26,089 bases of DNA from IMG/VR virus record IMGVR_UViG_3300025322_000534, positions 1 to 26,089 of that record, one strand, 5' to 3'. The position numbers were made by a program, and so were the translations under genes. Position 1 is the stretch's first letter. Each line of letters starts with the position of its first letter. The notes beneath the pieces were generated by a model. That model had not been told where the DNA came from and made no database searches. It saw only the letters and a list, made by a program, of their open reading frames with translations. Source of the stretch: a virus. Shown in pieces: positions 3,979 through 18,543 of this stretch.

Positions 3979-4704
3979 TTAACCTATACTTCTAGTGTTG
4001 GTAAAGTTTCCGGTAACTTGTGTGGCTTCAGAATCGTTGTAGAAGTCTGGTACATCAAAAAATGGTAGATTCTTCTCATACTTAGACTGTTCTTTCTTTA
4101 GGTTGGCCCAAGCGATCGCGACAATCTGTTTAGCTTCGTCAGAGTACATCCCACCCTTACCTTCATCGGTCCCTTTCTTCTTAAGAATAGCAGAAGCTTC
4201 TAGTGCTAGTGCCTCGTTACATTCCGGGAGAGATCCTGTAAATATTGTTTCGTCAGTATCTTCGGTAAGCTCTGTTACATTCTTCTGACCCCAGGCACAG
4301 ATTGTAAGTCCGGCTGAAGAGGGGGTGGGAGAGATAAAGAATCGTAGCCATTGGACAGCCCACTTTTTGTCGGTAGAATCGGGATAATCCAGTTTCCATT
4401 TGAGAAAGTCTGAGTAAACAAGGGGATTTCCATCGGGAGACTCGCCATATTGATCTCCATCGACTTCTAATCTCCATAGAGAATCGGGAGTCCAGACACT
4501 AGGAGCATCGTAGTATTGCTGATTAAGTTGAGTTGTGGAAGTCTTGGCATCTTCTAGTGCCGGCCATCTGAACATTCGTGAGAGTTTTATGTAGGCTCGG
4601 TTGATCGCTAGGTCGATTGTGGCCGGAGGATATAGTGAACTATTAGTTGAAACACTAAGATCTGATTGAACAGCACTGCGGATTTCTGATAATTGATCAA
4701 ACAT
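3979..4704 (-). CDS. Putative head-tail adaptor (neck/gatekeeper-like) protein
   Basis: A 241-residue protein. The N-terminus (INRAYIKLSRMFRWPALEDA) followed by a YYDAPSVWTPDSLWRLEVDG strand region and a PTPSSAGLTICAWG strand is the arrangement seen in phage neck proteins of the P22 gp4 / T7 gp11 adaptor type: an N-terminal helical part that lays out a long helix, then a beta insert, then helices (ECNEALALEASAILKKKG). Length is typical of such adaptors. No good Shine-Dalgarno site precedes the ATG; the 84-base gap upstream contains a repeated 20-base motif. Two bases separate its stop from the next gene. The adaptor call is moderately supported and rests on pattern, not on a database match. 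Confidence 0.55.
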   Translation of the reverse strand: MFDQLSEIRSAVQSDLSVSTNSSLYPPATIDLAINRAYIKLSRMFRWPALEDAKTSTTQLNQQYYDAPSVWTPDSLWRLEVDGDQYGESPDGNPLVYSDFLKWKLDYPDSTDKKWAVQWLRFFISPTPSSAGLTICAWGQKNVTELTEDTDETIFTGSLPECNEALALEASAILKKKGTDEGKGGMYSDEAKQIVAIAWANLKKEQSKYEKNLPFFDVPDFYNDSEATQVTGNFTNTRSIG

Positions 4705-4788: not shown

Positions 4789-6039
4789 CTATGTAAGCGC
4801 GAGATTGTTCTTGTATATGAAGACTAGGAAGTCAAAGTTCCATAGACTGTTAGATATACCCTCAATCATGCCATAGACGATGACTTTTGTCGTCGTGATT
4901 TTGTAGTTTGCCGAGTATAGGATAGTGGCTCCCGCGCCGTAGAATGGACAGTACTCATAATTTCCAGCAGGTGATCCGATATAGACCCTTACAAAGACCT
5001 CGACGAATGGGTAGTAGCCGAGATTGTGGACATATTCTCCCGTGACTCCCACATCATCATTGACTCCATCAAGAACAATGTTTATCGACTGTTTGGAAAA
5101 GTACTTGAGAGTCCCCTTTGACGAATCAAAAATGAGATCGTATGGTTGATCAGTCGTCAAAACATTCTTCCCAGGTTTGGCAACACGAAGACCCATGAAT
5201 GGCGCAACAGGAGAAGGTGAGGGAGACAAAGAAGATGAGGGAGACCTGGAAGCAGAAGCCGATGGAGAGAGCGACGGCGAAGCGGACGGGGAAGGTGACA
5301 AAGAAGGAGATCTACTGAATGACGAAGAAGGGGAGAGAGATAGGGAAAGGGATGGCGAGGCGCTCTCACTTCCTGAAAGAGAAGGTGATCTGGAAGGGGA
5401 AGGGGATGGAGAGACTGATGGTGATCTTGACTCGCTTGCTGCTGCATAGACAATCGTCAAAAGAGGAGCACTTCCAGCAGAACCGAAGTAATACTTGTAG
5501 TCATAGTAGTACTCTGGAGTTGTGCCGTCATCATAGAGATAGATCCCGATCGTGTTTCCAGAAGACCATCCTCCTCGATTGACTATCTCTTGAATGATGT
5601 CTTTGAGATCTGGTGTGTCTCTGGTTGTGCCACTTGAGGGAGTGAATGTGGCGTCCCAGTCTACAACTGCCGTTGTCTGTGTTCTGGTTCGGCAGGTAGA
5701 GAGTGGACTTGCAACAAAGTCTCCTGTGTTGTCCTCATCAACTCCGATCAACCTGTAGTGAATGGTAGTTGGGTTGAATGGAGAAGAGTTGTCTGTGAAG
5801 GTGATCTTTGCCGAAGTGATTGTGGCTCCCTGTGGGATTGTGATCGACTTGAAAAGGAGACTTAGGTTCCTGACTCCGCCATACCACTCTGATCCACTTT
5901 GCCACTCATCAAATACTCCGATCTGACCACCATCTCCATAGGTGAATGATTCGGCAAGCCAGGTAGGAGACCAGTGAGAATTGTACTTGTCGCTGATTGT
6001 CTCTGTGTTGGCGCCTATCCTTTTTGTGAATGTTGCCAT
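4789..6039 (-). CDS. Virion surface protein: DNRLRE-like N-domain, Ser/Pro linker, paralogous C-domain
   Basis: A 416-residue protein in three parts. Residues ~1-198 form a beta-rich module (LLFKSITIPQGATITSAKIT, later LKDIIQEIVNRGGW, ending LLTIVYAA) that resembles DNRLRE/CBM96-type carbohydrate-binding domains of surface proteins. Residues 202-277 are a Ser/Pro linker with Ser at nearly every second place. Residues 282-416 carry a domain shared with the next two upstream genes, marked by VAKPGKNVLTTDQPYDLIF and VHNLGYYPFVEVFV. The start directly follows the stop of the 6041-6454 gene. A tail-associated or head-decorating surface protein that binds glycans is the best reading; the exact virion position is unknown. 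The linker is encoded by a strongly purine/pyrimidine-biased tract. Confidence 0.8.
   Translation of the reverse strand: MATFTKRIGANTETISDKYNSHWSPTWLAESFTYGDGGQIGVFDEWQSGSEWYGGVRNLSLLFKSITIPQGATITSAKITFTDNSSPFNPTTIHYRLIGVDEDNTGDFVASPLSTCRTRTQTTAVVDWDATFTPSSGTTRDTPDLKDIIQEIVNRGGWSSGNTIGIYLYDDGTTPEYYYDYKYYFGSAGSAPLLTIVYAAASESRSPSVSPSPSPSRSPSLSGSESASPSLSLSLSPSSSFSRSPSLSPSPSASPSLSPSASASRSPSSSLSPSPSPVAPFMGLRVAKPGKNVLTTDQPYDLIFDSSKGTLKYFSKQSINIVLDGVNDDVGVTGEYVHNLGYYPFVEVFVRVYIGSPAGNYEYCPFYGAGATILYSANYKITTTKVIVYGMIEGISNSLWNFDFLVFIYKNNLALT
5209..5436 (-). repeat. Ser/Pro linker-coding low-complexity tract
   Basis: Codes for residues 202-277 of the 4789-6039 protein, a run of SPS, SRS, SLS units with Ser in alternate positions. 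The plus strand is mostly G and A here. The same kind of tract occurs in three other structural genes of the window. Confidence 0.9.
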
Positions 6040-6040
6040 A

Positions 6041-6454
6041 TTATGCCTCTATCTTCTCAAGTACGAAGTATCTGATCGAAACATCAACAGTAGTCCCCTT
6101 TGCGTTGCTAAAGTTGAAGGTGAGGTTGGTAGCATCAGACTGGACATAGTTGAATGTTACATCACCCGTGAATCCGAGTTTCACTCCAAAAAGCTCGACA
6201 TCATATCCGTTTGGAGCAAACACTTGGGCGACTCCGCTTCTTTTGGCGAAGGCTGCAACTACTGGGATGAAGGGAAGGTTGTGAGCCTGATCGAATGACT
6301 GATTGTTGGTTGAGGCTGCAAGGGTCACACTCTTTGTCCCTTCGGCGATGATCTTGAAGGTGTTGTACGAGCTGTGGAAGATGAAGTCGTTTGGATCGGT
6401 GGCCGTTTCGACATTCTTCCCCTGCTTGGCGATTTTGACTACTTGTTGTGTCAT
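6041..6454 (-). CDS. Small virion protein, HNL(G/P)-domain paralogue 2
   Basis: A 137-residue all-beta-looking protein without signal peptide or membrane segment. It shares with its two neighbours a small domain: an N-terminal KQGKNVETATDPNDFIFHSS, a central AHNLPFIPVVAAFA, and a C-terminal DATNLTFNFSNA followed by a strand-rich end. Its ATG overlaps the stop of the upstream paralogue as ATGA, and one base separates its stop from the next gene, so the three are co-translated. The domain alone here makes up the whole protein, while in the downstream gene it is joined to a Ser/Pro linker and a carbohydrate-binding-like domain. Position among fibre and tail genes points to a virion surface component; function not recognised. 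Confidence 0.75.
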   Translation of the reverse strand: MTQQVVKIAKQGKNVETATDPNDFIFHSSYNTFKIIAEGTKSVTLAASTNNQSFDQAHNLPFIPVVAAFAKRSGVAQVFAPNGYDVELFGVKLGFTGDVTFNYVQSDATNLTFNFSNAKGTTVDVSIRYFVLEKIEA

Positions 6455-6810
6455 GTTATGTTGTCATAAAAGATATGGTATATGAAGTTTTTTGCGACTC
6501 CTGTTGCGTTTCGTAGTACAAGGTTTGTGGCGTTGACCTCGAACCAGTAGCCAGTTGAATCAATCGGAGTGCTGAACAACTTTCTCCACACTCCAGCCGA
6601 TACTTCTGCAAACACAAGGCAGAAGGGGACATACCCTAGATTGTGAGGAATGTCGGTCGTGCTTGTAACACTTGCTGCATTGACCTCTTTCTCTTTGATC
6701 AAGATATACTCCGTAGGATCATCGCTGTCTACATAGAGTGAAAAGTGGTTGGGGTCGGTGTCTGTCTCGGCATTGTAGCCAGGAAGCGCACACTTGAAAC
6801 ACATTCCCAT
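6451..6810 (-). CDS. Small virion protein, HNL(G/P)-domain paralogue 1
   Basis: A 119-residue protein and the most divergent of the three paralogues. Matching landmarks are ALPGYNAETDTDPNHFSLYV at the N-terminus, IPHNLGYVPFCLVFAE in the middle and VNATNLVLRNATG near the end. It begins one base after the stop of the 6812-7315 gene; a second ATG two codons later is an alternative start. Its stop overlaps the next ATG (ATGA). No named family is recognised. The invariant HNLGY-x-PF core suggests a compact beta fold kept under selection. Confidence 0.72.
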   Translation of the reverse strand: MGMCFKCALPGYNAETDTDPNHFSLYVDSDDPTEYILIKEKEVNAASVTSTTDIPHNLGYVPFCLVFAEVSAGVWRKLFSTPIDSTGYWFEVNATNLVLRNATGVAKNFIYHIFYDNIT

Positions 6811-6811
6811 T

Positions 6812-7315
6812 TTAGTTGTTCCCGATCAAGATTGAGGGAAGTCCATCATCGGCGTAGAAGAGCATCCTCTTTGTTTCGCCATCGATCACGATGTCCCCGT
6901 CTCCGACACGGACTGCCCCAGATATAAGCGAGCCAGCTTGAACTTCTCCAGCAAAAACAGCAGATCCATCTTCTGCTATGAGTGCAAAAGTGATGAGGCC
7001 ATTCTTGCTCTTGGCGGTGATTCCTTCTGGAGTGTGGACAACTTCACCACTCACCCCTGGAACATACTTTCCGATCCTGAATCCACCCGAATCAACAAGT
7101 TGGAACTCTCCAAGAACCTTCTTTGACTTGGTGTTGAGCATGGTTGAGAGTAACTCTACTGCGACTCTTTTGCTTGGGACTGTATTATTCTTGATTTCAT
7201 TTGGAGAAGAGACTCCACCACTTCCTGAGTTAGACACTCCATAAGCAGGAGCTTCTTGTCCTGGGAATGGAGATTCTTGGATCTCTTCTGGGTAGAATAT
7301 CTTTTCATTGCTCAT
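6812..7315 (-). CDS. Tail fibre/tip-like protein with phage tail C-terminal repeats
   Basis: I place the start at the ATG at 7315 (MSNEKIFYPEE), giving 167 residues. It has a GGAAAGG/AGGA site just upstream. A longer in-frame version beginning at 7474 would read through the homing endonuclease gene in another frame and is not credible. Residues 1-45 are a Pro/Gly/Ser-rich linker. The remainder (GGFRIGKYVPG, HTPEGITAKSKNGLITFAL, SAVFAGEVQAGSLISG, DIVIDGETKRMLFY, PSILIGN) follows the repeating beta pattern seen in C-terminal parts of phage tail-tip and fibre proteins. A structural role at the tail end is likely; receptor binding is inference. The first 11 bases overlap the endonuclease gene. 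Confidence 0.7.
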   Translation of the reverse strand: MSNEKIFYPEEIQESPFPGQEAPAYGVSNSGSGGVSSPNEIKNNTVPSKRVAVELLSTMLNTKSKKVLGEFQLVDSGGFRIGKYVPGVSGEVVHTPEGITAKSKNGLITFALIAEDGSAVFAGEVQAGSLISGAVRVGDGDIVIDGETKRMLFYADDGLPSILIGNN

Positions 7316-7715
7316 TCCTAATCCTTTCCATATCATATTTTTTATGACATGGTACGCATAATCTAACCCAGTCACTAATATCTCTTTTATATAGTTTAGA
7401 CTTATTAGCCCAATGTATCTTACATCTAAATAAGCCAGTCTCTCCACAGTCATCACATTTATCTGGTTTCCCAAATTCTCTTGAAATCCATGCGTGTATT
7501 CCTACATAGCTTATGTTGTCAGCTTTCCAGTTTGGATTTTTTATTCCCAGAAATCTTTTTCCAAAAAAATAGTTTTTATTTCCCTTTTGTGCTTTTCCTA
7601 TTTTTATCCTTGTTTCTTTTGACATTTTTCTACCAATCATCCAAGGAGCTCCAATCTTTTTGTGGGACTCACTCATTTTTTTCTTGGTTTCTTCTGATAT
7701 TTTATGTTTTGTCAT
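7305..7715 (-). CDS. HNH homing endonuclease with two NUMOD3 motifs
   Basis: A 136-residue free-standing homing endonuclease. Two NUMOD3-type DNA-binding motifs lie at the N-terminus (ISEETKKKMSESHKK at ~6-20 and MSKETRIKIGKAQKG at ~31-45). An HNH/zinc region follows with C87-x2-C90, the IHWANKS segment carrying H101, and C120-x2-C123-H124. This matches small phage HNH enzymes that nick or cut a target site and spread their own gene. The ATG overlaps the stop of the beta-propeller-like tail gene by one base and its end overlaps the next gene by 11 bases, so it was inserted neatly between two structural genes. It probably plays no part in virion assembly. Whether it is active cannot be judged; the key residues are present. 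Confidence 0.88.
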   Translation of the reverse strand: MTKHKISEETKKKMSESHKKIGAPWMIGRKMSKETRIKIGKAQKGNKNYFFGKRFLGIKNPNWKADNISYVGIHAWISREFGKPDKCDDCGETGLFRCKIHWANKSKLYKRDISDWVRLCVPCHKKYDMERIRNEQ

Positions 7716-9304
7716 TATGAAAAATATAATCTGAGCCGATGAATTTCGGGGCTTGTGTTACCTGTGGGGGTAATGACGATCCTCGGCTCGAATATATCTC
7801 CCTTCTCTGCGATATTGAATATAGCTTTGGTTTCGTCTCTTGCTTGGAATGTTGCAGAGCCACTCTCCATGTAGGCTGTTTTCCAACCACCATTCTTATC
7901 TAGTTTGTATTGGAACGCGATTGAAGATCCGTCAGGTAATGGTTCACAATAGATCTCGGCGAACTTCCATTCTGTTATATCTGAGGTCATCTTGTCAGAC
8001 TTTGCTTTGAGTTCTAGACCCTCATAGGTTGCGACTGCCTTGGTTGTAGAACTACTAGCCTTAACTCCAAAGTCTGATCCATCTCGATAACTTACCAAGA
8101 CTGTACCATCAACTGAAGCAACTGCTCCGATCTCATCAACCTCTAGATTGTAGTCTAGGTTTAGAGTGAATGGATAGTTCTTGTTGGTACGACCATAACT
8201 ATAGACTCCGTTAAAACCAGATGTAGCGTTAAATACACCCCAAAGAGCCATGTTTCCTACCGATTGCTTGTCAATCCAACTTAAGGCTGTCTGTTCCCAT
8301 TCAAAGAAGTTTACCTGGTCAATCAGGTTACAAACTCCGCCGGGATTACATTTCCCACCTCCTGGGAACTTTCTAACCGGAACTGAATCTGACATATTGG
8401 CGTAGAAGATCTCTCCCTCATCTCCGACTTGGGAAAGTGGGATTTCTGAGTCGATAGAAGCGTTAACACTCTTATTAGGATCTGAGGATCTTGAAGTCCC
8501 TATGATTGTGCGACCATCTCTTTCAACTAAAGTCTTAGCATGGTTTCCTGGGATTAGGTTTAGAGCTTCGTTAGTGAATGACTGATCATACCCCACCATA
8601 GCGAGCCATGATCTATTAGCGATCATTAGAGCGCCTCCGGCCTGCTTCATAGTATGCCAATCTGCATAGTTTAGGTTAATTTTAGGCCAAGCATCTCCTT
8701 CGTCAACATCGTTCCAGTCTGATCTACCTGGTAACTCTTTTCGGTGAAGTGAGGTCCCTGTAACCCAATATAAGAATGTTTGATTAGTATCACTGTACCA
8801 CTCCTCAGCTCCGGTGATCTTTCCGCCTGGGTCATCATAAACTTTACTTACAAACCCATCTGCATCTCTGCGATAAATTGATCCGGTATTTCCAAACTGA
8901 TAGGTATAGCCATCGGTTGATTTAACAAACCATAATACTAGATCATCATAAACAGTTGTAGAACCGGCCGAAGGCGAAGGGCTTGGTGATGGAGAATTAC
9001 TAGGAGTTACACTAGGAGACCTTGATCCAGAGGCAGATGGACTTGGACTAGCAGATGGACTTGGCGTAGGACTTGAAGATAAAGAAGGTGATGGGGATGG
9101 GGTGCTACTTGTACTTGATGAGGGAGAGATACTAGCGCTCGAAGAACTTTGACCTATCCCCTCATCAACTAAGGCTTTCCCGGCACTGAGGGTATCGTTG
9201 ATCTTCCTAACATCTAGGTTAGTCCCAAACTTGAAAGCTCCCCGGATTCCCTTATCGTGATAATCAGATAGTCCGGTGAATGAAGAGATTTCAAATAATG
9301 ACAT
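7715..9304 (-). CDS. Large tail protein, beta-propeller-like, with Ser/Pro insert
   Basis: A 529-residue protein. A short conserved-looking head (MSLFEISSFTGLSDYHDKG, then FKFGTNLDVRK) is followed by a Ser/Pro linker at residues 53-112 and then ~415 residues of strand-rich sequence with repeated motifs such as DLVLWFVKSTDGYTYQFGN, GGALMIANRSWLAMVGYD, and MALWGVFNATSGFNGVYSYG, compatible with a beta-propeller. The end (PRIVITPTGNTSPEIHRLRL) is a beta-sandwich type strand set. A good AAAGGA site stands five bases before the ATG at 9304. Such proteins in short-tailed phages can be nozzle or hub proteins; here that is inference. One CNPGGVCN pair could form a disulfide or metal site. Confidence 0.72.
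   Translation of the reverse strand: MSLFEISSFTGLSDYHDKGIRGAFKFGTNLDVRKINDTLSAGKALVDEGIGQSSSSASISPSSSTSSTPSPSPSLSSSPTPSPSASPSPSASGSRSPSVTPSNSPSPSPSPSAGSTTVYDDLVLWFVKSTDGYTYQFGNTGSIYRRDADGFVSKVYDDPGGKITGAEEWYSDTNQTFLYWVTGTSLHRKELPGRSDWNDVDEGDAWPKINLNYADWHTMKQAGGALMIANRSWLAMVGYDQSFTNEALNLIPGNHAKTLVERDGRTIIGTSRSSDPNKSVNASIDSEIPLSQVGDEGEIFYANMSDSVPVRKFPGGGKCNPGGVCNLIDQVNFFEWEQTALSWIDKQSVGNMALWGVFNATSGFNGVYSYGRTNKNYPFTLNLDYNLEVDEIGAVASVDGTVLVSYRDGSDFGVKASSSTTKAVATYEGLELKAKSDKMTSDITEWKFAEIYCEPLPDGSSIAFQYKLDKNGGWKTAYMESGSATFQARDETKAIFNIAEKGDIFEPRIVITPTGNTSPEIHRLRLYFS
8969..9148 (-). repeat. Ser/Pro linker-coding low-complexity tract
   Basis: Codes for residues 53-112 of the 7715-9304 protein (SPSPS, SASPS, SGSRSPS units with Thr in places). 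It separates the short N-terminal head from the strand-rich body, so it looks like a hinge added into an otherwise conserved protein. Confidence 0.85.
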
Positions 9305-9322: not shown

Positions 9323-9342
9323 ATAATTCTATCTTAACTCCA
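9323..9342 (-). repeat. Degenerate copy of the intergenic 20-base repeat, copy B
   Basis: Matches the exact repeat of 4721-4740 at 14 of 20 positions, sharing the core ctatctta. It covers the stop codon of the LamG protein gene and lies just upstream of the Shine-Dalgarno site of the next gene, the same placement as the other copies. On the transcribed strand AGATA-GAAT-TATCT is a perfect five-base inverted repeat. Confidence 0.45.
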
Positions 9343-11544
9343 ATCTTTATATTTATCACTCCAGGTTGTCTCTTGATCAGAGTATTTATCAGACCATGTA
9401 GTTCCCTTCTGTGAGAACTTATCACTCCAAGAAGTTCCCTGTGCTTCATACTTATTTTCCCATTCCGCCGGTGAGGGCGAGGCTGAGATAGAAGAACTTG
9501 GCGATAATGAGATTGACCTGGATTCTGAGAGAGAAGGTGATAGAGAGATAGAGAGTGAGGGTGATCGCGATTCGGAAACTGAAGGAGAAAGTGAAGGCGA
9601 GAGTGATTCCGAGACAGATGGGGATCGAGATTCGGACAAAGAAGGTGATCTGGATTCAGAAACACTCTCTGAAACTGACTCAGATCGAGATTCTGATACG
9701 GAGGGAGACCTAGACTCAGATAGGGACTCACTAACAGAGGGAGAAAGCGACTCTGAAGAAGAAGGTGAAGGACTTAGAGAGATTGATCGGGATTCAGAGA
9801 CCGATGGAGATCTGGATTCAGATGGGGATGGTGATAGGGATATAGAGAGTGAGGGTGAAACTGAGGGGGAGAGAGAAGCGGAGACAGAAGGTGAAACTGA
9901 GGGGGAGAGAGAAGCTGAAGAGGATGGAGAGGGAGATAGGGATATGGATCCACTTACAGAAGGACTTAATGAAATTGATAATGAAATTGACGAAGATGGC
10001 GATGGAGAGAGAGATGGAGATCTTGACTCAGATACTGACGGAGAATTTGATTCCGAAGAGCTAGGAGATGGTGAGAGTGAGGGCGAGAGAGATACAGAAA
10101 CGGAAGGGGAGGAAGATTCAGATCCGGTAGCTGAGATAGATCTTGACTCAGATAAACTAGCACTAGAACTTGGTGAGGGGGATAGTGATTCGGAAATACT
10201 CTCAGAAACGGAAGGTGATCTGGAGGGAGATCTTGATTCCGAGACAGAAGGTGAACTGCTAGGAGATGGAGATAGCGATACTGACCGGGATTCGGAAATT
10301 GAAGGGGATAGGGAAACTGATACTGAAGGTGATAGAGAAGACGAGGAACTAGGACTAGGAGATAGAGATGGGGAAAGAGAGAGAGATAAACTAGCTGAAG
10401 AGCTAGGAGAAGGTGAGAGAGAGGGAGAGAGAGATACTGAAACGGAAGGCGATGGAGATCCTACGGTACTCCAAAATGTACTAGGACTATTCTGGTTGTT
10501 ATATTCAGTTACTAACCAATCAGTAGTTAATACAGACAACCTAAACCTAAACTCATCAATCATCCCCGACATAAAATTGGCATTAGTCGGTCCTGTGTAA
10601 CTTAAACAACCAATACGAACTGTATTGGAGGCGTTGTAGGTAGGAGCTATTTTAGCGGCACTATTTTCCTGTACTCCAGAATGGAAGACTTTACCAGTTG
10701 TACCATCATAAGTTCCTGCTACGAAATGCCAAGCATCATCTTGAATATCAGTAGTCCCCGCAACATGTACTCCTCCTTCCGCCCAATGGGATAAGTTTAC
10801 TGCTTGTCCAGTAGCGCGGTCATCAAAAACAATCCCTTGGTTTTCTGGTCCTACTTCATACCAAAAACTTGTAAATATAGTTCTAGTTCCAGTAGCGTTA
10901 ATGTTTGTCCAGGCTTGTAAGCTGTAATTTGTTACAGGTCTAAAGTCTGCGTGATTAGTAATTACAATCTTAGAAGAAGAACCATTAAACCCAGCACCTT
11001 GTCCAACCTTCCCATTTCCAGCACTATAGGTAATAGAGGTATCTGTCCCATCGTGATTACTAGCGGTGCTATCGTGTGAGTCTGAGTGTAGGTGATAAAC
11101 TGCTTTATAATCTGACCAGACTGCCTGCGCCCCATAAGTATCCGTATCTGCATAGGCAGTTGCACTAGCGTTTCCTGCCCACAGATAGAGTGAAGTGTCG
11201 GTAGCTGTAGCCAAAGTAGGAACCTTAGCCCATACTTCAGCAAGACTACTAGCAGGAGTAATTGAAACAATCTCAAAAGGTATCTCAGTTGTTCCAGCAC
11301 TATCTGTAGTTATTCTCAAATCTGCTCCAGTTGAGAGCATCGCAGAGTAAACTGAGGCGGGTATATTCCCATCTTTAATCAGTACAGGGAAGTTGGTTAA
11401 GTCAGAGGCTCCTGATACTTTGGTGTTGTCTGATTTTATCTGGGCGGATACTGTCCATTCGTATGAAAAACCATTTAATAATAATTCATCATTACTCTCT
11501 TGTAGTAAAGAACTATTGTTTTCTTGTAGTATAAAGTTGGTCAT
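9334..11544 (-). CDS. Virion surface lectin-like protein: DUF2341, LamG, (Ser-X)n stalk, W-repeats
   Basis: A 736-residue protein. Residues ~27-140 match a DUF2341 pattern (NFPVLIKDGNIPASVY, EIPFEIVSI, EVWAKVPTLA, SLYLWAGNASA). Residues ~145-350 form a LamG/concanavalin-like lectin domain (AVYHLHSDSHDSTASNHDG, AGFNGSSSKIVI, WHFVAGTYDG, MIDEFRFR). Residues 363-692 are a low-complexity stalk with Ser at almost every second position. The C-terminus (695-736) holds four units of an 11-residue repeat starting WENKY or WSDK(Y/F). No signal peptide is seen, as expected for a virion protein. A 26-base gap without an obvious Shine-Dalgarno site precedes it. Best reading: an extended fibre or decoration that displays a glycan-binding head on a Ser-rich rod. 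The C-terminal repeats could anchor it or oligomerise it. Confidence 0.85.
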   Translation of the reverse strand: MTNFILQENNSSLLQESNDELLLNGFSYEWTVSAQIKSDNTKVSGASDLTNFPVLIKDGNIPASVYSAMLSTGADLRITTDSAGTTEIPFEIVSITPASSLAEVWAKVPTLATATDTSLYLWAGNASATAYADTDTYGAQAVWSDYKAVYHLHSDSHDSTASNHDGTDTSITYSAGNGKVGQGAGFNGSSSKIVITNHADFRPVTNYSLQAWTNINATGTRTIFTSFWYEVGPENQGIVFDDRATGQAVNLSHWAEGGVHVAGTTDIQDDAWHFVAGTYDGTTGKVFHSGVQENSAAKIAPTYNASNTVRIGCLSYTGPTNANFMSGMIDEFRFRLSVLTTDWLVTEYNNQNSPSTFWSTVGSPSPSVSVSLSPSLSPSPSSSASLSLSLSPSLSPSPSSSSSLSPSVSVSLSPSISESRSVSLSPSPSSSPSVSESRSPSRSPSVSESISESLSPSPSSSASLSESRSISATGSESSSPSVSVSLSPSLSPSPSSSESNSPSVSESRSPSLSPSPSSSISLSISLSPSVSGSISLSPSPSSSASLSPSVSPSVSASLSPSVSPSLSISLSPSPSESRSPSVSESRSISLSPSPSSSESLSPSVSESLSESRSPSVSESRSESVSESVSESRSPSLSESRSPSVSESLSPSLSPSVSESRSPSLSISLSPSLSESRSISLSPSSSISASPSPAEWENKYEAQGTSWSDKFSQKGTTWSDKYSDQETTWSDKYKDWS
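9337..9462 (-). repeat. Four 11-residue Trp repeats (WSDK type)
   Basis: The last 42 codons read WENKYEAQGTS, WSDKFSQKGTT, WSDKYSDQETT and the truncated WSDKYKDWS. The period is 11 residues with W at 1, K at 4, aromatic at 5 and Thr/Ser at 10-11. The coding DNA is diverged between units, so this is an old repeat kept at protein level. Confidence 0.85.
9469..10458 (-). repeat. Alternating (Ser-X)n stalk-coding tract with purine-rich plus strand
   Basis: About 990 bases code for residues 363-692 of the LamG protein. Ser occupies nearly every second position, with X mainly Pro, Leu, Val, Glu, Arg, Ile or Ala. Nearly the whole plus strand is G/A-rich and the transcript U/C-rich. Synonymous Ser codons are mixed, but exact 26-base direct repeats remain at 9854-9879 and 9890-9915, showing local duplication. 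Confidence 0.9.
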
Positions 11545-12288: not shown

Positions 12289-13980
12289 CTAACTTAACTT
12301 TAGGAAATCAAAGTCGCTTTTTTCCCAACCGGGTATCTCATAAATGTTTCCCTCGGTCCAACCCTCTGTAAACTTCTTGTTGACGAATTGGTCCGGACTC
12401 CATCTTGTCGCGGTGAGATTTCCACCATGACGAATATCGAGATTAGGATATTTAGAAGAATAACTCTCGCAAGTATTGTCATCAACTCTCTCTGGCCTTA
12501 GGTGAGTTCCAGGTTCGAATCCCATACTGCGAACCCACTTATTGAAATCGTGATCTCCATGAGCCTTGATTCTTTCTTTAACCATCTCTACTCTCTTTTT
12601 ATAGTGTTTGACTGCTAGTTCTCTATTGACACAAATACCAGAGACTTGCTTACAATCATTGGTCTTAACAGTGTTACCGGTCTCGGAGTTTACCTTGACC
12701 ATATTCACATTGTAGTACCAGACATCATCCTTGGGAGGAGTGAAGTCGAAGTGAGATGGATGATATACCACATCATGTTCACAAAAGAACACATACTTAG
12801 TCTCAAGGGCTTCTAGAGCCGATAGAATCTGCTTGAACATAGTGAAATACCCTCGTTTGTCCCCACTTACAACATTTTTGTCCCCAAATGACATGGGTTT
12901 TAGGGATGATGACACTATGGGTAGTCCTATGCTCTTCAATTGACTTTGTACGCGGTGAGCGATACTTAATTTTAATTGGTTATCTGTATAGAAGATAATC
13001 CCTTTATCTGATTTATTCATTTGTCCTCCTAGTTTATTAAGATCTTTCTCTGTCCATCCGGGAATGGGCCAGAACTTTTCTATCATCCAACTTAATGGCT
13101 TTTTAGCTCCCGGCCACTTATTATTTAACCATAGGTCTTGAGAATACTGTTTGGCGTGATCAACCTGCTTATTAGATTGCGGATAAGGGAATGAGAAGTC
13201 TCCACCCTGAGTTCTAAACATATGTGCATACCAGGTGTTTTTACTACACACCATCTTCCCACCAGATAGCCAACTCTTGCAAGCTAACTCGGTTCCCATC
13301 TGTCCCCATGATCCATGTTCCTCATCCATCCCACCCAACTCTTCGTATCGTTTCTTTTCTAGGAACCAACAGGCTCCAATACAACTCATCGTATCTATGA
13401 TCTGACCGGTATTCTCTGGTCTATTCTTAAGTTCTCCCCAATAATTAAAGTGAAGAGTCGAGTCAAACCTCCAACCGATTGTCTTCCTGGACCATCGAGG
13501 TTCCCAGATAATGATTCTCTCAAACTCTGTACTATCACATCCTGACTTTCCCTTTCCTTCTCCCGGCTTCTGACATTCTTTGGGAGTTGGTCCCTGATAC
13601 CATTCATTACCACACTTCTTGCACTTCCAGTTGAATACATGAAGGTTATATTGCATTGGTACAACAGTATAATCTGGCTTACAGTCTGCCATTAACTTAA
13701 CATCAAATCCTTCGTCAACGATACAGTGAGCATCGAGCTTCATTATGTACTTACCTCTAGCGAGTCTAGAAGCTTCGTTTATTGCTTGTCTTTGTCCTAC
13801 TGACTCTTTATGGTAAACAATAATGACATCTTTATTGTCAACTAATTCTGGTTTTGACCATGCTCCATCCAGGATCACAATTATCTCTGTATCTGCCCTT
13901 CTTTTATTCAATACATCTTCTACTGTCTTTCTGAGAAACTCTTCGTTCCTTGCGGTGATTAGTACCGATACATCTGTCAT
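12289..13980 (-). CDS. Two-domain glycosyltransferase: GT2-type domain with zinc-ribbon insert plus second GT-A-like domain
   Basis: A 563-residue protein. Residues 1-~260 are a family-2 type GT-A domain (VSVLITARNEEFLRKTVEDV; donor/metal region KLDAHC at 81-86). Cysteines at 120, 123, 136 and 148 (CKKC...C...C) form a likely zinc ribbon inserted in this domain. Residues ~326-563 form a second domain (GIIFYTDNQL, PMSFGDKNVVSGDKRGYFTM, VFFCEHDVVYHPSHFDF, IYEIPGWEKSDFDFLKL) clearly related to the whole 15434-16171 protein. The first domain is related to the 17824-18543 protein. So this gene fuses the two glycosyltransferase types present separately in the cassette. The ATG overlaps the stop of the dehydrogenase gene as ATGA. 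No membrane segments, so cytoplasmic action is expected. Sugar donor and acceptor are unknown. Confidence 0.85.
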   Translation of the reverse strand: MTDVSVLITARNEEFLRKTVEDVLNKRRADTEIIVILDGAWSKPELVDNKDVIIVYHKESVGQRQAINEASRLARGKYIMKLDAHCIVDEGFDVKLMADCKPDYTVVPMQYNLHVFNWKCKKCGNEWYQGPTPKECQKPGEGKGKSGCDSTEFERIIIWEPRWSRKTIGWRFDSTLHFNYWGELKNRPENTGQIIDTMSCIGACWFLEKKRYEELGGMDEEHGSWGQMGTELACKSWLSGGKMVCSKNTWYAHMFRTQGGDFSFPYPQSNKQVDHAKQYSQDLWLNNKWPGAKKPLSWMIEKFWPIPGWTEKDLNKLGGQMNKSDKGIIFYTDNQLKLSIAHRVQSQLKSIGLPIVSSSLKPMSFGDKNVVSGDKRGYFTMFKQILSALEALETKYVFFCEHDVVYHPSHFDFTPPKDDVWYYNVNMVKVNSETGNTVKTNDCKQVSGICVNRELAVKHYKKRVEMVKERIKAHGDHDFNKWVRSMGFEPGTHLRPERVDDNTCESYSSKYPNLDIRHGGNLTATRWSPDQFVNKKFTEGWTEGNIYEIPGWEKSDFDFLKLS

Positions 13981-14948
13981 TTGTCCAACCCCCTATTCCC
14001 ACTAAATCCTATACCTTCAAAGCCTGTCCTAATTATAAACTTCTGCCAGATCGGATTCTTTGGTATTAGCTGTTCTTTGTTATCGTAACCTTTACGCCAC
14101 TTGTTAGCGTTCTTCTCTATTTGATGTTCCACGATTGGGAGAGCCTTTCTCATCTGTCTCATCCGATATGCAAGGGCGTTCATATCTTTTGGTAAACATT
14201 TCCCGGACCATCCACGATTGTTGGGATATACAAATGAATGGGTACGACCTAGCCTTGGATCTAACACTAAACCCTCCCTGATGCGGTTAAACGAGGATTT
14301 GAAGGTATTTGCTATATCATATACATCATTCCAGTAATCAACCCTCTGCATTATCCACAGGTTCTCACAATACTTAATGATTTCCGCTTCCATAGCAGTA
14401 CAAAGGTGAATTGGAGCGTTAGCGTGAAGAACTAAGGAAAAGAAGCCGGCAATCGCGTTACAAGTCTCTTCATCTCCACCTATAATCTGGAAAGCATCTC
14501 TTCGGGGTTCGAGTAATGGGTGTCCGAGTGTCTCTCCGACATATTCCGGACTCATCGCGATCTTAACTTGATAGTAATTGGCTAGTCTATCGGTGGTCCC
14601 GATCTCTACAGTGCTTTTAATTAGGAAGTAATCCACATTTTTTCGGTACTTTTCAACCGACTTTTCCACAATTGAGACATCACACTGACCAGTTTCGGGG
14701 TTCATTGGGGTAGGAACTCCGATAATCGCTAAATCATAGTGGGGAAGGTGTTCTAATCCTATCAAATTAGTGTTAAGGACTATTGTTTCACCATCCTGTT
14801 TCCTGACAATCCCATCACTACCGACATAATGAGCGTTCTTGAAGTATTTACCCATGTATTGACCAACCCATCCGTAACCTATGAGGAGAACTTTGGGTTC
14901 TTTGTTGACTACATCACTACTTGACTCTGGTTTACCTAAGTTTTTCAT
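13977..14948 (-). CDS. UDP-glucose/GDP-mannose dehydrogenase family protein, short form
   Basis: A 323-residue protein. The N-terminal Rossmann motif is G24-Y-G-W-V-G29. The family landmarks follow: IIGVPTPMNPETGQCD, FLIKSTVEIGTTDRL, MSPEYVGE, and a central helix with EAEIIKYCENLW. The catalytic cysteine is about residue 251 in GWSGKCLPKD, matching the family GG-x-C-x-PKD signature. Family members oxidise a nucleotide sugar to the uronic acid with NAD and are usually ~390-450 residues; this one ends shortly after the cysteine motif and seems to lack the C-terminal nucleotide-sugar-binding domain. It may therefore be a reduced enzyme or use another substrate. Its start overlaps the upstream gene by 17 bases and its end overlaps the glycosyltransferase ATG, so supply of an activated sugar to that enzyme is a reasonable inference. 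Confidence 0.88.
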   Translation of the reverse strand: MKNLGKPESSSDVVNKEPKVLLIGYGWVGQYMGKYFKNAHYVGSDGIVRKQDGETIVLNTNLIGLEHLPHYDLAIIGVPTPMNPETGQCDVSIVEKSVEKYRKNVDYFLIKSTVEIGTTDRLANYYQVKIAMSPEYVGETLGHPLLEPRRDAFQIIGGDEETCNAIAGFFSLVLHANAPIHLCTAMEAEIIKYCENLWIMQRVDYWNDVYDIANTFKSSFNRIREGLVLDPRLGRTHSFVYPNNRGWSGKCLPKDMNALAYRMRQMRKALPIVEHQIEKNANKWRKGYDNKEQLIPKNPIWQKFIIRTGFEGIGFSGNRGLDK

Positions 14949-15441
14949 AATACTCCTCTACATCAATTTTGTTTGATAATACTGTTGTGTATGGTTTGAA
15001 TTTCTTGTAGTCGTAACGATAGCGATAATGGTCCCAGATTCGATCGTATCGGTAGAACTTGTTGATCTCAGGCTCTGAATCGTGAATTATCACGATGTCA
15101 GCGCTATATTTGAACTTGATAGCAAACTTGTGTCTATGTCGGGCAGGTCTTCCATCAATTAAGACTACACCCCACCTTAGTTTATCCATCCCTGTATTGA
15201 TTGATTCTTCTCGCGTATGTAGGAAAATGTCGTGAGTTTCACTTCGGTAGTCTTCAAAATTGGTAATCCACTTAGGATCGGTATCGACACTCATTAGATA
15301 ACGCCCTTGGTCTTTACATAACCAATGTAGTATGGGGGTACTGTTCCATCCCATTCCAAGCTCTAGGACCGGTTTAGTAGGCACTCTTTCGATTGCTTTT
15401 ACGAGTATGGGGAGGTGGCTACCATGTAGATCGTTATTCAT
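14932..15441 (-). CDS. Putative SAM-dependent methyltransferase-like protein
   Basis: A 169-residue protein with a Rossmann-type order: PVLELGMGWNSTPILHWL (motif I-like, residues ~24-41), YLMSVDTDPKW (acidic end of strand 2), WGVVLIDGRPARHRHKFAIK (strand 4 with Asp-Gly) and ADIVIIHDSEPE (strand 5). This is the order of class I methyltransferases, though motif I is not the classical GxGxG. The LIDG-x-PARHR element recalls polysaccharide O-methyltransferase relatives; that link is tentative. It overlaps the upstream GT-like gene by 8 bases and the dehydrogenase gene by 17 bases. Methylation of a sugar built by the neighbours is an inference from the context. Confidence 0.65.
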   Translation of the reverse strand: MNNDLHGSHLPILVKAIERVPTKPVLELGMGWNSTPILHWLCKDQGRYLMSVDTDPKWITNFEDYRSETHDIFLHTREESINTGMDKLRWGVVLIDGRPARHRHKFAIKFKYSADIVIIHDSEPEINKFYRYDRIWDHYRYRYDYKKFKPYTTVLSNKIDVEEYYEKLR

Positions 15442-16171
15442 AATATAGTTTTAGCATATCAGATGCTTTTCCCCAAATTGGTATGTCGTACATTTTAATA
15501 TCACCTAAGCGCTTGTGCTTCCCATGATTCATTTCATAGCCATAAGCCTTAGGGTGAGTGAAGACTATTGAAGGAGTAGCAGAGAAGAACTCTTCCACTT
15601 CCCTGACTGTAACCCCTAGCATCTTTTCATATCTGCCAATATCTCCCCAGATAGAAGAGATCCTTTCGTCTGTCCATCCAACTTTATGTAATTCTTCTCG
15701 GCGCTTGAACCTCTCTTCCAAAGCTTCGATTAAGGTGGTTCTTCGAGCGATCAGTTGGTTGATAACTCGTCTATTGGTGCGAAATGAGTACATTGGGGGT
15801 TTGGTCCATGTGAATAGACTCAGCTTTTCCATATCATAGGCGAAGTCGGTGAGTTTTGGCACGAAAGTATTGAAATGTTCCAGGGAATAGAAGATGTCAT
15901 CTTCGGCCATGGCCACAAACTCGCTTTTAGCGACCTTACAGCCCTCTAAGATCTGGTGGTATATGTTGAAATGTGACCTTCCTATATCTCCAATGCATAC
16001 ATTTTGACCGAAATCTATTGGTTTGTGACTAACTGAGATAAGTGGATGGTCCCCGATCGCTTTTAGTAACTGTTCTTTAGTGTTTTTGACAAATTCCGGA
16101 GCTTCCGTTTCTAAATGGTTGCAAGTGTAGTAAATAACCGATATGTCTAGAGGTTCTTTTGATAGCCACAT
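15434..16171 (-). CDS. GT-A-like glycosyltransferase, single-domain relative of the fused enzyme
   Basis: A 245-residue protein that starts DISVIYYTCNHLETEAPEFV and carries KPIDFGQNVCIGDIGRSHFN and an acidic centre FVAMAEDDIFYSLEHF (AEDD at 89-92), the likely metal/donor site of a GT-A fold. The C-terminal half contains a helical part (RRTTLIEALEERFKRREEL) and ends IKMYDIPIWGKASDMLKL. Start, acid motif and end all align with residues 326-563 of the 12289-13980 protein, which supports common descent. The ATG is coupled by TAATG to a 26-residue membrane peptide just upstream. No membrane span in the protein itself. Substrate unknown; glycosyltransferase is inferred from the paralogy and the acidic motif. 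Confidence 0.72.
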   Translation of the reverse strand: MWLSKEPLDISVIYYTCNHLETEAPEFVKNTKEQLLKAIGDHPLISVSHKPIDFGQNVCIGDIGRSHFNIYHQILEGCKVAKSEFVAMAEDDIFYSLEHFNTFVPKLTDFAYDMEKLSLFTWTKPPMYSFRTNRRVINQLIARRTTLIEALEERFKRREELHKVGWTDERISSIWGDIGRYEKMLGVTVREVEEFFSATPSIVFTHPKAYGYEMNHGKHKRLGDIKMYDIPIWGKASDMLKLYYE

Positions 16172-16251
16172 TATAAGTACCTATAAAGTAATATCCATCC
16201 CATGACGAATATCATAATAATAAACCACTTGGCTGTTTGATCTTCTTTCAT
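16171..16251 (-). CDS. 26-residue single-pass membrane peptide
   Basis: A very short gene that fills the gap between the HNH-AP2 endonuclease and the GT-like gene. It begins MKEDQTAK, continues with a hydrophobic span WFIIMIFVMGWILLY and ends RYL, so it is almost entirely one transmembrane helix. Its ATG forms ATGA with the endonuclease stop and its stop forms TAATG with the GT-like start, so both ends are translationally coupled. A GGAG site lies 10 bases before the ATG. The exact fit between neighbours and the hydrophobic composition make it a credible gene. Role unknown: it might recruit the soluble glycosyltransferases to the membrane, or act alone on the membrane. Confidence 0.7.
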   Translation of the reverse strand: MKEDQTAKWFIIMIFVMGWILLYRYL

Positions 16252-16694
16252 GGTGCATATTCTCCGAAGTATTTTATTTCTGCTATTTTTCTAGCCATGT
16301 TTGCTTCTTCTACACTAATAAAATTACCAAGGGATATTTGTTTCCTATTAACTCCAATATACGCCCTATATTTATTCCTGTCTTTTCTATAACTAACACC
16401 AGATTTGCCAGTTGTACTATTTTTGCTTGTTTTAGCGTTAAGAACATTCTCCCTTATGGTACAAATCCTTAGATTTGATCTGCGATTATCTAGCTTGTCA
16501 TGGTTAATATGATCGACAACCATTCCCTTGGGATTATCCATAATGAACCTATGAAGGTAAAATCTTTCTCCCCTATCAGTATTTATGACATACCCAAGAG
16601 TTTTATTGATAGACCACCTATGAGTTGACACTCTATCTAGATCTTTGTTATCTATGGTGGTAAAACCACCTATTACTAATGGTATGTTTTTCAT
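16248..16694 (-). CDS. HNH homing endonuclease with AP2 domain
   Basis: With the ATG at 16694 (MKNIPLVIGG) the protein has 148 residues; an upstream ATG at 16715 adds seven. I prefer 16694 because it makes an ATGA overlap with the methyltransferase stop. The HNH core is VVDHINHDKLDNRRSNLRIC at about 59-78, with the invariant DH, N and RRxNLR pattern. The segment SGVSYRKDRNKYRAYIGVNR to the end is an AP2-type DNA-binding domain. This is a common phage homing endonuclease type. It interrupts the sugar cassette: removing the stretch between the two ATGA sites would leave a normal ATGA junction between the methyltransferase and the membrane peptide. Probably a selfish insertion with no part in glycan chemistry. 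Confidence 0.88.
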   Translation of the reverse strand: MKNIPLVIGGFTTIDNKDLDRVSTHRWSINKTLGYVINTDRGERFYLHRFIMDNPKGMVVDHINHDKLDNRRSNLRICTIRENVLNAKTSKNSTTGKSGVSYRKDRNKYRAYIGVNRKQISLGNFISVEEANMARKIAEIKYFGEYAP

Positions 16695-17230
16695 TTCTTT
16701 ACCCACCATGCGCACGGAGCTTTGTCGTCTGGATGACCATCTTCATACCTAGGTATTATATTGAGATCTATATTGTGTATTTTTGTGTAAATATCTACAG
16801 CCGGTATCACTCCACCGGCATGGTGTTTATAATAATCGTGAAGAGAGACAATCCCTCCATTCCTAACCTTTGGGGACCATAGAAGAATGTCTAACATCAC
16901 CGAATCGAAGGTGTGATCTCCGTCAATAAACACGAAGTCTAGACATCCATCTTCAAAATCTACACTAGCTTCTAGACTTGTCTGGACTAATAAGTCAACA
17001 CCATATTTTTCTAGTCTCTTATCTGCTTTTTCATATGCTTTATCTTGATATTCGTTGCTTCTCCAATTCCCGGCGTACTCTTTCCAAGGATCTATTCCAT
17101 ATAGGCGTAATCCCGGGATAGTCTGGCATAGGATCTCTGAGTACCTTCCGTCTGCTACTCCTATCTCAGCACCTACCTTGAATCCTAACCCTGCAAAGTG
17201 TTTGGCTAGGTCTATTCTATTTTCTATCAT
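16691..17230 (-). CDS. Class I SAM-dependent methyltransferase (Methyltransf_24 type), paralogue 2
   Basis: A 179-residue protein. Motif I is VGAEIGVADGRYSEIL (~19-34), strand 2 ends YGIDPWKEY, strand 4 is LDFVFIDGDHTFDSVMLDI and strand 5 is GGIVSLHDYYKHHAGGV. The FIDGDH motif is typical of Methyltransf_24/CmcI-like enzymes found in glycan and natural-product pathways; the His/Asp residues often help bind a metal. Its relation to the next upstream gene is plain along the whole length (AEIGVADG versus VEIGTEKG, IDGDH versus IDGNH), so a tandem duplication is likely. One base separates the two genes. Target may be a sugar hydroxyl, by context. Confidence 0.85.
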   Translation of the reverse strand: MIENRIDLAKHFAGLGFKVGAEIGVADGRYSEILCQTIPGLRLYGIDPWKEYAGNWRSNEYQDKAYEKADKRLEKYGVDLLVQTSLEASVDFEDGCLDFVFIDGDHTFDSVMLDILLWSPKVRNGGIVSLHDYYKHHAGGVIPAVDIYTKIHNIDLNIIPRYEDGHPDDKAPCAWWVKK

Positions 17231-17231
17231 G

Positions 17232-17837
17232 TTACTCCTTTATAAAGTACCAGGATCTTATGCGATCCATTTTTTTATTAAGATCGTCTGACTTATAGTC
17301 TGATTTTTTGTCAAGGATAAATAGCGGTTGCTCCAACCTGTAAGACTGAAAGTATGCTTCTAGAGCGTATGGGATATGGGTGAATGATTGACTCTTGGTT
17401 TTGATATAGTCATGGCCAGAGATGATTCCACCAGGCTTGACCTTCCTTGTCCAGAGGGTTAGATCTATTACTACATGATCAAGGCGATGATTGCCGTCTA
17501 TATATACGAAGTCGATCGAGTTGTCGGCGAATCCCCACGATGCTTTCTCGGAAGTTGTTTTTATTATCTCGTACTTAAATCCCTTCAATCTATCCATCGC
17601 TTCTCTGTAGTTGTCTTCGTGGTTATCTTGAGTAGTGCCAATCTTATATCCTTCGTTGTCATCATAATACTTATATGGATCTATACAATATAGTTTCAGT
17701 GATGGGTTAGATCTTAGAAGAACCTCTGCAAACTTACCCTTCTCAGTACCGATCTCCACTCCCCTAGTGAATCCGAGATCCTTAAACTTGACCGCTAGAT
17801 CATTTCTACCATAGTCTGGTACTCTAATTACTTTCAT
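17232..17837 (-). CDS. Class I SAM-dependent methyltransferase (Methyltransf_24 type), paralogue 1
   Basis: A 201-residue protein with motif I GVEIGTEKGKFAEVLL (~26-41), LYCIDPYKYY at strand 2, IDFVYIDGNHRLDHVVIDL at strand 4 and GGIISGHDYIKTKSQSF at strand 5. These motifs match the Methyltransf_24 group. The C-terminus (LFILDKKSDYKSDDLNKKMD) is more charged than in the neighbour. Its first 14 bases overlap the end of the glycosyltransferase gene. A tandem pair of methyltransferases behind a glycosyltransferase suggests two methylations of one glycan or of two positions; this is inference. Confidence 0.85.
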   Translation of the reverse strand: MKVIRVPDYGRNDLAVKFKDLGFTRGVEIGTEKGKFAEVLLRSNPSLKLYCIDPYKYYDDNEGYKIGTTQDNHEDNYREAMDRLKGFKYEIIKTTSEKASWGFADNSIDFVYIDGNHRLDHVVIDLTLWTRKVKPGGIISGHDYIKTKSQSFTHIPYALEAYFQSYRLEQPLFILDKKSDYKSDDLNKKMDRIRSWYFIKE

Positions 17838-18543
17838 ATAACTCTCTTATAGCCTGTCTTGTTATTTGTTTGTCATCACTTAATGAGTAACCTCTTCCTT
17901 CTGTCTTGTGCCAGTGAGCGTACCAGGTAGATATGTTACAAACCACCCTACCACCATCCTTCCTACACTTACCACATATCTCTTGAGCTTCTTGCCAGAA
18001 TGATCCGTAGGTCTTGTCATCCAATAGTTTTAGCTTGTGAAAGTAGTCTTTGTTCATAACCCAACACGATCCCTGGAATGTTTCCAGATCTGTTATCGTC
18101 TCGGTGAATCTTCTTTCGGTGGGGATTCCCTGTAGGTTCTCGTTAAGGACCATCTCATCAATCGGGTACTTGTTATCTGTTCTCTTCTCTATCTCCCAAG
18201 TACTAACATCCAGGGCGTATCTTCTAGGAATTACAATCCAGTTCTTCTCTATATTCTCAAGGATCTTAGTGTCGAATCCATCATTAAACATACAATGAGC
18301 ATCGGTTTTCATTATGTATTCGCCACTTGCCAAGGCTACACCCGCGTTGATTGCTCCCCTCATCCCTCTAGGTTCTGAGAAGTGAATGTAGTGAACTCTC
18401 TTGTCTTCTATGATCTCCGGCCAATATCCCTCCAATACAGAAATGACCTCTATTTTACCTTTTGATTTCTGGAGAATGTCTTTAATTGTCTGATTTAAGT
18501 ATTGTTCGTTTCTTGAGGGTATCACAACTGATAACAGTGGCAT
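17824..18543 (-). CDS. Family-2 type glycosyltransferase
   Basis: A 239-residue GT-A protein. The N-terminus LLSVVIPSRNEQYLNQTIKD is the standard GT2 nucleotide-binding start, GMRGAINAGVALASGEYIMK precedes the DAHC motif at 81-84 (DxD-like donor/metal site), and a later FQGSCWVMNKDYF plus SFWQEAQEICGKCRKDGGRV form the acceptor side. It lacks membrane segments. Related to residues 1-260 of the 12289-13980 enzyme (shared YIMK-x-DAHC and GFD-x-K). It opens the sugar cassette after the structural genes. No strong Shine-Dalgarno site is visible; a TTGACT/TAGTAT pair lies immediately upstream. Donor and acceptor unknown. Confidence 0.88.
   Translation of the reverse strand: MPLLSVVIPSRNEQYLNQTIKDILQKSKGKIEVISVLEGYWPEIIEDKRVHYIHFSEPRGMRGAINAGVALASGEYIMKTDAHCMFNDGFDTKILENIEKNWIVIPRRYALDVSTWEIEKRTDNKYPIDEMVLNENLQGIPTERRFTETITDLETFQGSCWVMNKDYFHKLKLLDDKTYGSFWQEAQEICGKCRKDGGRVVCNISTWYAHWHKTEGRGYSLSDDKQITRQAIRELYESN

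Follow-up and report, generated by a model that had tools for sequence, protein, structure and literature searches.

A domain shared by three adjacent genes

The virus record IMGVR_UViG_3300025322_000534 from IMG/VR (positions 1 to 26,089; this whole 26,089-nucleotide stretch is called the window below) contains three adjacent genes that a first-pass annotation, made from the letters alone, had described as sharing one small domain, and it is this triplet that is considered here. All three open reading frames (ORFs) are present and lie on the minus strand. The first (6451-6810, 119 amino acids [aa]) and the second (6041-6454, 137 aa), which overlap by 4 nucleotides (nt), are stand-alone copies of the domain (copies 1 and 2), and the third gene (4789-6039, 416 aa) bears copy 3 at residues 282-411 (4807-5196), preceded by an N-terminal decoration domain (5449-6039) and by the Ser/Pro linker that the annotation had pointed out, which was read from the translation at residues ~198-280 (5200-5448). 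Adjoining copy 1 on its upstream side, also on the minus strand, is a gene (6812-7315) whose product ends ...KRMLFYADDGLPSILIGNN and which is referred to as the stalk gene; its start at MSNEK was taken from orthologues, the longest ORF beginning at 7474.

Pairwise comparison bears out the claim that one domain is common to the three genes. Local alignment gave scores of 96 for copies 2 and 3, 72 for copies 1 and 3 and 91 for copies 1 and 2, against shuffle maxima of 56, 55 and 61, respectively; in no pair did any of 2000 shuffles reach the real score. An iterated profile built from the copies and their relatives scored window copies 1, 2 and 3 at 119.5, 134.7 and 108.6 bits. Paralogues within one contig are ~25% identical. 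As the annotation had said, the domain does not carry a name: no credible match was found in Pfam, in PHROG or among PDB sequences by profile search, and a known domain was therefore rejected as its identity. Searched with the domain profiles up to E 10, the PDB sequences gave no match, and thus no sequence relation to phage T5 pb5 either, a protein that enters the argument below. Stray matches were Ig_TgrO1 on copy 2 (E 0.019, under the Pfam cut-off), PHROG 31964 on copy 2 (0.3), PHROG 1865 on copy 1 (0.098), PHROG 25586 in one of 20 position-1 members (0.0088), and five PHROGs matched by one member each (best 0.025) of A8, the alignment used below for structure prediction; a match of gene 3 to PHROG 15511 falls on its low-complexity Ser/Pro linker. 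No near DNA relative of the window was found, nor any cultured-phage relatives of window copies 2 and 3 or of the first two copies in contig L016. Copy 1 found two weak Delftia records, and the Delftia gene was rejected as a family member because it fails the domain profile.

The N-terminal domain of gene 3 had been called carbohydrate-binding-like. It looks beta-rich, and in a Pfam scan of 10 decoration domains one, the orthologous domain of contig L020, matched CBM96 weakly (E 0.0028; 17.9 bits against a cut-off of 26); the window domain itself gave no CBM96 match in that scan, so that it can be termed CBM96-like only by way of its orthologue.

Copy number, ancestry and fusions

Searching IMG/VR with the copies yielded 28 further contigs, and when the iterated profile was run over their ORFs together with those of the window, exactly three copies were found in 28 of the 29 contigs, the exception (L021) ending inside the array at the contig end. 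Scans of whole records (n=24) gave three matches in 23 and two in the L021 record, the second of them at the contig edge; for L005, L030 and L043 the locus already comprises the entire contig. Exactly three copies, joined in a single ORF, are also present in L046, a contig of a bacterial metagenome-assembled genome ('bacterium ADurb.Bin212') in which a scan of the whole 1.2-Mb genome found three, and in L052, a virus contig. In total, 30 of 31 contigs have exactly three copies in a row and no complete one has one, two or four, the counts for L014 and L052 referring to ~12 kb of each. Because some contigs are near-copies of one another (L013/L014, L030/L031), the independent cases are fewer than 31, and because contigs were found with triplet members as queries, single-copy relatives unlike these could have been missed.

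In a maximum-likelihood tree without L014 (a near-copy of L013), the copies sort by their position in the array and not by phage. The position-1 clade holds 26 of 28 rows (support 100/99), the position-2 clade 25 of 27 (100/99) and the position-3 clade 25 of 27 (86/85), and each window copy falls in the clade of its position. These three main clades were kept in a second tree, to which L046, L052 and cultured phages were added, from which L013, L014, L016 and L030 were left out as divergent or near-copies, and for which an N-terminal extension was trimmed from nine cultured copies. Since the position clades run across the sampled contigs, the triplication is older than nearly all of the sampled phages. 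A recent local duplication was rejected on the position clades of both trees, and the stepwise duplication and fusion proposed by the first-pass annotation was not borne out as a local event: the positions are three old clades, with L013 and L016 unplaced.

The order 1-2-3 is fixed, in separate genes and in fusions alike. Copies 1 and 2 are fused in L008, L016, L025 and L033, copies 2 and 3 in L011, and all three in a single ORF in L032, L046 and L052. At every position L032 and L052 are sisters. The partner of L046 is L033 in copy 2 (100/94) and L032/L052 in copy 1 (82/67), and because these pairings differ, the full fusion may have arisen once or twice. In 23 unfused arrays the boundary between copies 1 and 2 measures -4 to +2 nt (a 4-nt overlap in 15 and -1 to +2 nt in 8, using 7995 as the start of copy 2 in L001), a near-touching layout that fits equal output of the subunits. 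Decoration domains are carried by copy 3 in the window, L005, L006, L008, L017, L020, L025 and L041, by copy 1 in L027 and L041, and by copy 2 in L045 and, as an insertion, in L024, so that 11 of the 30 complete arrays are decorated and 19 are not. The placement of the extra domains thus differs from contig to contig, which likewise does not bear out a local fusion step. In L024 (6324-7196), the insertion of ~155 residues lies just before the last strand of copy 2, which indicates that the domain tolerates a large loop insertion.

The upstream stalk and the tail context

A stalk-motif gene lies directly upstream of copy 1 in all 29 arrays looked at, at a gap of -37 to +10 nt. By eye, its end carries a motif of the kind IxIDGxxxRIVxxDGTxxRIVIGN, suggestive of a beta 'stalk', in 29 of 29, and a strict 7-mer pattern for the final strand of the stalk matches 28, with L046 ending in PQIVITI. 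L014 and L030, outside these 29, both have a stalk homologue upstream in the gene-context comparison. The stalk of L016 is a 76-aa gene, and in L041 copy 1 is fused to a second stalk-motif protein. A profile of the stalk gave nothing credible against PDB.

The triplet module adjoins two kinds of tail machinery, SU10-type and siphovirus-type. The gene order in the window group is propeller-like protein (a weak assignment), stalk, triplet and SU10-type adaptor. The adaptor gene of the window (3979-4704, minus strand), downstream of the triplet, passes Pfam PF24175 (E 2.3e-8; 35.1 bits against a cut-off of 27). Near the stalk gene, 7715-9304 (minus strand), which has a Ser/Pro linker of its own, possibly encodes a beta-propeller nozzle-type tail protein: a profile of 13 orthologues matches designed propellers weakly (best E 7.7e-7), with no single stretch passing alone. 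The nozzle of SU10 is described as a seven-bladed propeller whose channel is plugged by a tail needle, reconstructed with threefold symmetry imposed (PMC9509320), and by this analogy the window stalk may be a needle. The siphovirus context is seen in L046, where the order is tape measure, Dit, Tal-like protein, a 95-aa stalk and the triple fusion; the genes of L033 are similar.

Predicted fold

The natural three-domain chain of L046 was modelled by AlphaFold with a predicted local distance difference test score (pLDDT) of 88.2 and a predicted template modelling score (pTM) of 0.87, from the 21 rows of alignment A8, which were selected out of a pool of 85 domain copies plus 8 fusion proteins. 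Strand order is similar in each third of this model and in window copy 2 modelled alone (pLDDT 89.8, pTM 0.73), and the differing folds that the first-pass annotation had named as a refuting outcome were thus not seen.

In VIA structure comparisons, the best match of the L046 model was T5 pb5 bound to FhuA (Z 9.2, 226 residues, root-mean-square deviation 4.2), followed by the Oekolampad receptor-binding protein bound to LptDE (Z 5.8, 199 residues) and a third row at 3.7. In BFVD the model had seven matches at E <=0.001; among them is P23 of phage phiL7, encoded by the third gene behind 'tail protein III' (by reading, J-like). Most of the BFVD matches shown are proteins without a named function. 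Foldseek matches in PDB to botulinum haemagglutinin, vicilins and antibodies were not significant and were dismissed. Copy 2 alone gave best VIA rows of Z 6.2-7.9, among them a pseudaminidase (7.9), the phi297 tailspike (7.1), discoidin II and the AP22 tailspike (6.8 each), Helix agglutinin (6.5) and an R1 pyocin fibre (6.3), with the discoidin II and Helix agglutinin values (Z 6.2-6.8) lying under the VIA guide of Z 8. As modelled, the single domain resembles an H-type-lectin-like beta-sandwich; the Pfam search gave no match to the H-type lectin family. H-type lectins, tailspike C-termini, pyocin fibre tips and the pseudaminidase domain are homotrimers in their own proteins.

Cultured phages and an apparently relocated strand

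A weak tblastn match of L046 (E 0.6) led to the cultured Brevundimonas phage vB_BpoS-MaInes, a siphovirus by microscopy (PMC10070969). Its tail fibre ORF ends ...RLVISDG and is followed directly by three family members (L056 3068-3499, 3502-3990 and 3992-4444), which score 23.2, 20.8 and 30.8 bits, the two genes behind them scoring 1.9 and -1.5; pairs 1/2 and 2/3 beat all 1000 shuffles. The first of them (ON529866, 43715-44143) overlaps the end of the tail fibre ORF with its start and has no coding sequence (CDS) listed in the record. One MaInes copy led in turn to Rhizobium phages, of whose seven listed records three were examined; there, three small genes stand behind the gene for a J-type protein with the ending ...KRILIAD. 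When all ORFs of seven cultured-phage stretches were scanned, MaInes, RHph_N1_10, RHph_Y2_11 and RHEph10 each showed exactly three matches, and phiL7, Delftia RG-2014 and Strzyga showed none; the tip attachment protein of Strzyga has an end without the stalk motif. In the four phages with matches, the triplet stands right after the fibre, J or tail assembly gene. The genes that follow the triplet at L058 4673-5158 and L056 4441-4833 are alike by eye and are not family members by profile; they possibly encode a conserved partner.

All 12 cultured copies begin, at residue 2, with a strand (xDRxxLG, TNRVVLG, VNRVLLD or PDRVVLG) that closes the stalk gene in other phages, and the fibre or J protein of the Brevundimonas and Rhizobium phages, judged from its sequence, stops before the last strand of the stalk. 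A 7-mer strand score was built from 28 usable stalk ends; 0.07% of 1444 background windows reach a value of 5. On this score the 7-mer at the N-terminus ranks first within its protein in 11 of the 12 cultured copies and second in the twelfth. Only one of 79 main-group copies (L009_3) scores at least 5, and the stalks of that group already hold the strand. For copy 2 of RHEph10 an upstream TTG start was used, as in its sister phages, the start in the record (gp020) being later and leaving out the strand. In the second tree the Brevundimonas and Rhizobium copies lie on long branches outside the three main clades, so the triplication may have arisen more than once.

A proposed heterotrimeric tip

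The three genes probably encode three paralogous subunits of a 1:1:1 heterotrimer that caps a threefold stalk as a receptor-binding tip. Computed for this proposal are the shared predicted fold, the three copies, their old orthology, fixed order and fusions, the upstream stalk and the complementation of a strand by the N-termini; the heterotrimer, its 1:1:1 ratio, the trimeric state of the stalk, the seat on it and receptor binding are inferred. Each subunit would be an H-type-lectin-like beta-sandwich, and one each of proteins 1, 2 and 3 would form a trimer of pseudo-threefold symmetry, seated at the C-terminus of a central stalk that is itself trimeric, with one subunit docking per stalk chain. 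In the window phage, with its SU10-type adaptor, the stalk would be the needle-like protein encoded at 6812-7315, and in siphoviruses a Tal/J-type fibre. A symmetric stalk would thereby bear a receptor-binding face that is asymmetric, a task that falls to the single chain pb5 in T5, and the additional carbohydrate-binding-like domains, some of them on Ser/Pro linkers, would be optional decorations. The guess in the first-pass annotation that the copies might form a trimer or fibre tip can be counted as supported to this extent. The same set of three, as far as sequence comparison goes, recurs in many distantly related phages, and a more general statement can be made with about as much confidence for it as against it: that host recognition relies on a tip in which three paralogues, one for each stalk chain, form an obligate heterotrimer and present an asymmetric face, with the number fixed at three across SU10-type and siphovirus-type tails and with triplication perhaps having occurred more than once.

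The arrangement that competes most directly is a stack of three homotrimers along a spike, with copy 1 by the stalk, then copy 2, and copy 3 distal, each ring being homotrimeric. The fold is like ones that are homotrimeric elsewhere, the order 1-2-3 is fixed in genes and fusions, and it is copy 1 that L041 joins to a stalk, all of which would suit a stack. However, a stack gives no reason for there always being three copies, the single three-domain chain, with its pTM of 0.87, is consistent with a compact unit, and in the Brevundimonas and Rhizobium phages copies 1, 2 and 3 all begin with the strand that the stalk lacks. Three different proteins that complete the same strand position on a trimeric stalk would be expected to sit side by side, one per chain, and it is mainly for this reason that the heterotrimer is favoured and the stack considered unlikely.

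Slightly less likely again is a structural role for the triplet, as cap or chaperone of spike or neck, in which case receptor binding would be left to the linked lectin-like domains. It could draw on the carbohydrate-binding-like domains that some copies bear, on the adaptor gene adjoining the triplet and on the lack of a named function for most of the BFVD matches shown; yet the majority of complete arrays are undecorated, the triplet occupies the fibre-tip position in siphovirus-type and cultured phages, and the two best matches among solved structures are receptor-binding proteins. That the genes encode three separate, alternative receptor binders or decorations, serving host range or different virion sites and kept adjacent by duplication, is very improbable, because, despite the low identity of the paralogues and their differing optional domains, every complete array keeps three where the number would be expected to vary, and the genes touch and are locked 1:1 by fusions.

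Several observations weigh against the heterotrimeric tip. On the structural side, the rows of A8 were picked so that MAFFT placed each on its expected domain, and Foldseek with the L046 model found nothing significant in PDB (best E 2.8e-3, to an unrelated protein). According to the VIA guide, a best Z of 7-8 is typical of models without a clear match, pb5 was seen in a second VIA look only, and unrelated sandwiches, for example a human GOLD domain (6.3), match copy 2 at a like Z. The pseudo-threefold symmetry of the L046 model would be an interpretation that pTM alone does not give, and the pseudo-threefold region of pb5, which is described at its pb4 end (PMC9586334), is absent from the solved structure that VIA matched. 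In the first tree the divergent contigs L013 and L016 contribute six rows that lie apart from the position clades, on the position-3 side of the drawing with weak support (80/52), and the stalk-copy 1 fusion of L041 would, if the stalk is homotrimeric, bring three copies of copy 1. The cultured copies are remote relatives, at 12-31 bits against the main profile; copy 1 of Rhizobium N1_10 reached an E of 0.19 only, and the score of MaInes copies 1/3 was reached by 16 of 1000 shuffles. As for the strand, cultured copies 3 score low (1.2 in MaInes, and 4.4), the Rhizobium J ends already score 7.5 on the motif, the four cultured records amount to two lineages, and the Rhizobium copy 1 was partly found by means of the strand segment. 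Finally, no copy was found in the 42 kb examined of Strzyga, which is reported to share the genus of MaInes (PMC10070969).

Tail spikes are threefold symmetric and many receptors are single proteins, and an asymmetric binder on a symmetric stalk is known for few phages, T5 pb5 among them. If the heterotrimer is real, this symmetry breaking would be readable from gene sequences, through three old subunits, their fusions and a relocated strand. In cultured phages of Rhizobium and Brevundimonas, 'hypothetical' genes behind J would gain a testable receptor-binding assignment, the small MaInes gene that has no CDS in its record among them, and so would genes of many environmental phages.

Other features of the window

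Long Ser/Pro-rich repeats (SPSxSPS) are found in four window genes (4789-6039, 7715-9304, 9334-11544 and 18919-19893), in one of which they stand behind a Laminin_G_3 domain; one ORF of this type in L001 encodes 1045 aa. Two ORFs are HNH-endonuclease-like by reading: 7305-7715, which is flanked by the propeller-like gene and the stalk gene and runs into the start of the latter, and 16248-16715, which has relatives in L005, L007 and L024. Between capsid and tail genes, a block at 12289-18543 holds glycosyltransferase-, methyltransferase- and sugar-dehydrogenase-like genes, named by reading and not by family search, parts of which are also present in L001 and L029-L032. The major capsid protein (19966-21072, PHROG 267) matches tail and tail-fibre PHROGs at residues ~135-218, perhaps an inserted domain. 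No tRNA was found in the window.

Comparison with known systems

A cap formed by a single chain on a threefold spike is known from T5 (pb5) and has been proposed for the 'hand-like' proteins described in PMC12309495. In T5 (PDB 8A8C) the threefold central fibre ends in one tip that is not trimeric, pb5 on the pb4 trimer, much like the role proposed here, and the triplet likewise follows directly after the central fibre or stalk gene, in 29 of 29 arrays and in four cultured phages. The pb4-facing region of pb5 is reported to have pseudo-threefold symmetry in a predicted structure (PMC9586334). The two systems differ in that pb5 is one chain of 640 residues, whereas here there are mostly three genes with ~100-150 aa per domain; a single chain, as in pb5, occurs only in L032, L046 and L052, the window and most contigs having three genes.

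The LptD-binding receptor-binding protein of Oekolampad (PDB 9RPT), the tail-proximal part of which is described as poorly ordered, as in pb5 (PMC12685063), and the 'hand-like' proteins (PMC12309495) are small, beta-rich and encoded after the tail spike, as here. One of the latter, from JLBYU60, was modelled as a monomer touching all three spike chains (PMC12309495). In contrast to the triplet, each of these is a single gene giving a single and shorter chain, and PHROG 425 (the 'hand-like' tail-spike cap) had no match in the PHROG searches of the domain proteins.

In the literature searched, no heterotrimeric or three-paralogue phage tip was found described, and nothing on point concerning H-type lectins in phage tails. 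The 'heterotrimers' reported for T1 are capsid decoration proteins (PMC11945409), and the pseudo-threefold axes of JBD30 are given as capsid axes, its tip consisting of three trimers of one receptor-binding protein (PMC11445458).

A similar sandwich is found in discoidin II, Helix pomatia agglutinin, the C-termini of the phi297 and AP22 tailspikes and pyocin fibre tips (VIA Z 5.1-7.1). H-type-lectin-like tips are homotrimers of one gene product, whereas the phages considered here have three diverged paralogues. In that respect the proposed arrangement recalls the A, B and C heads of C1q, for which three adjacent paralogous genes supply one heterotrimeric head on a stalk, an analogy only, since fold and organism are unrelated.

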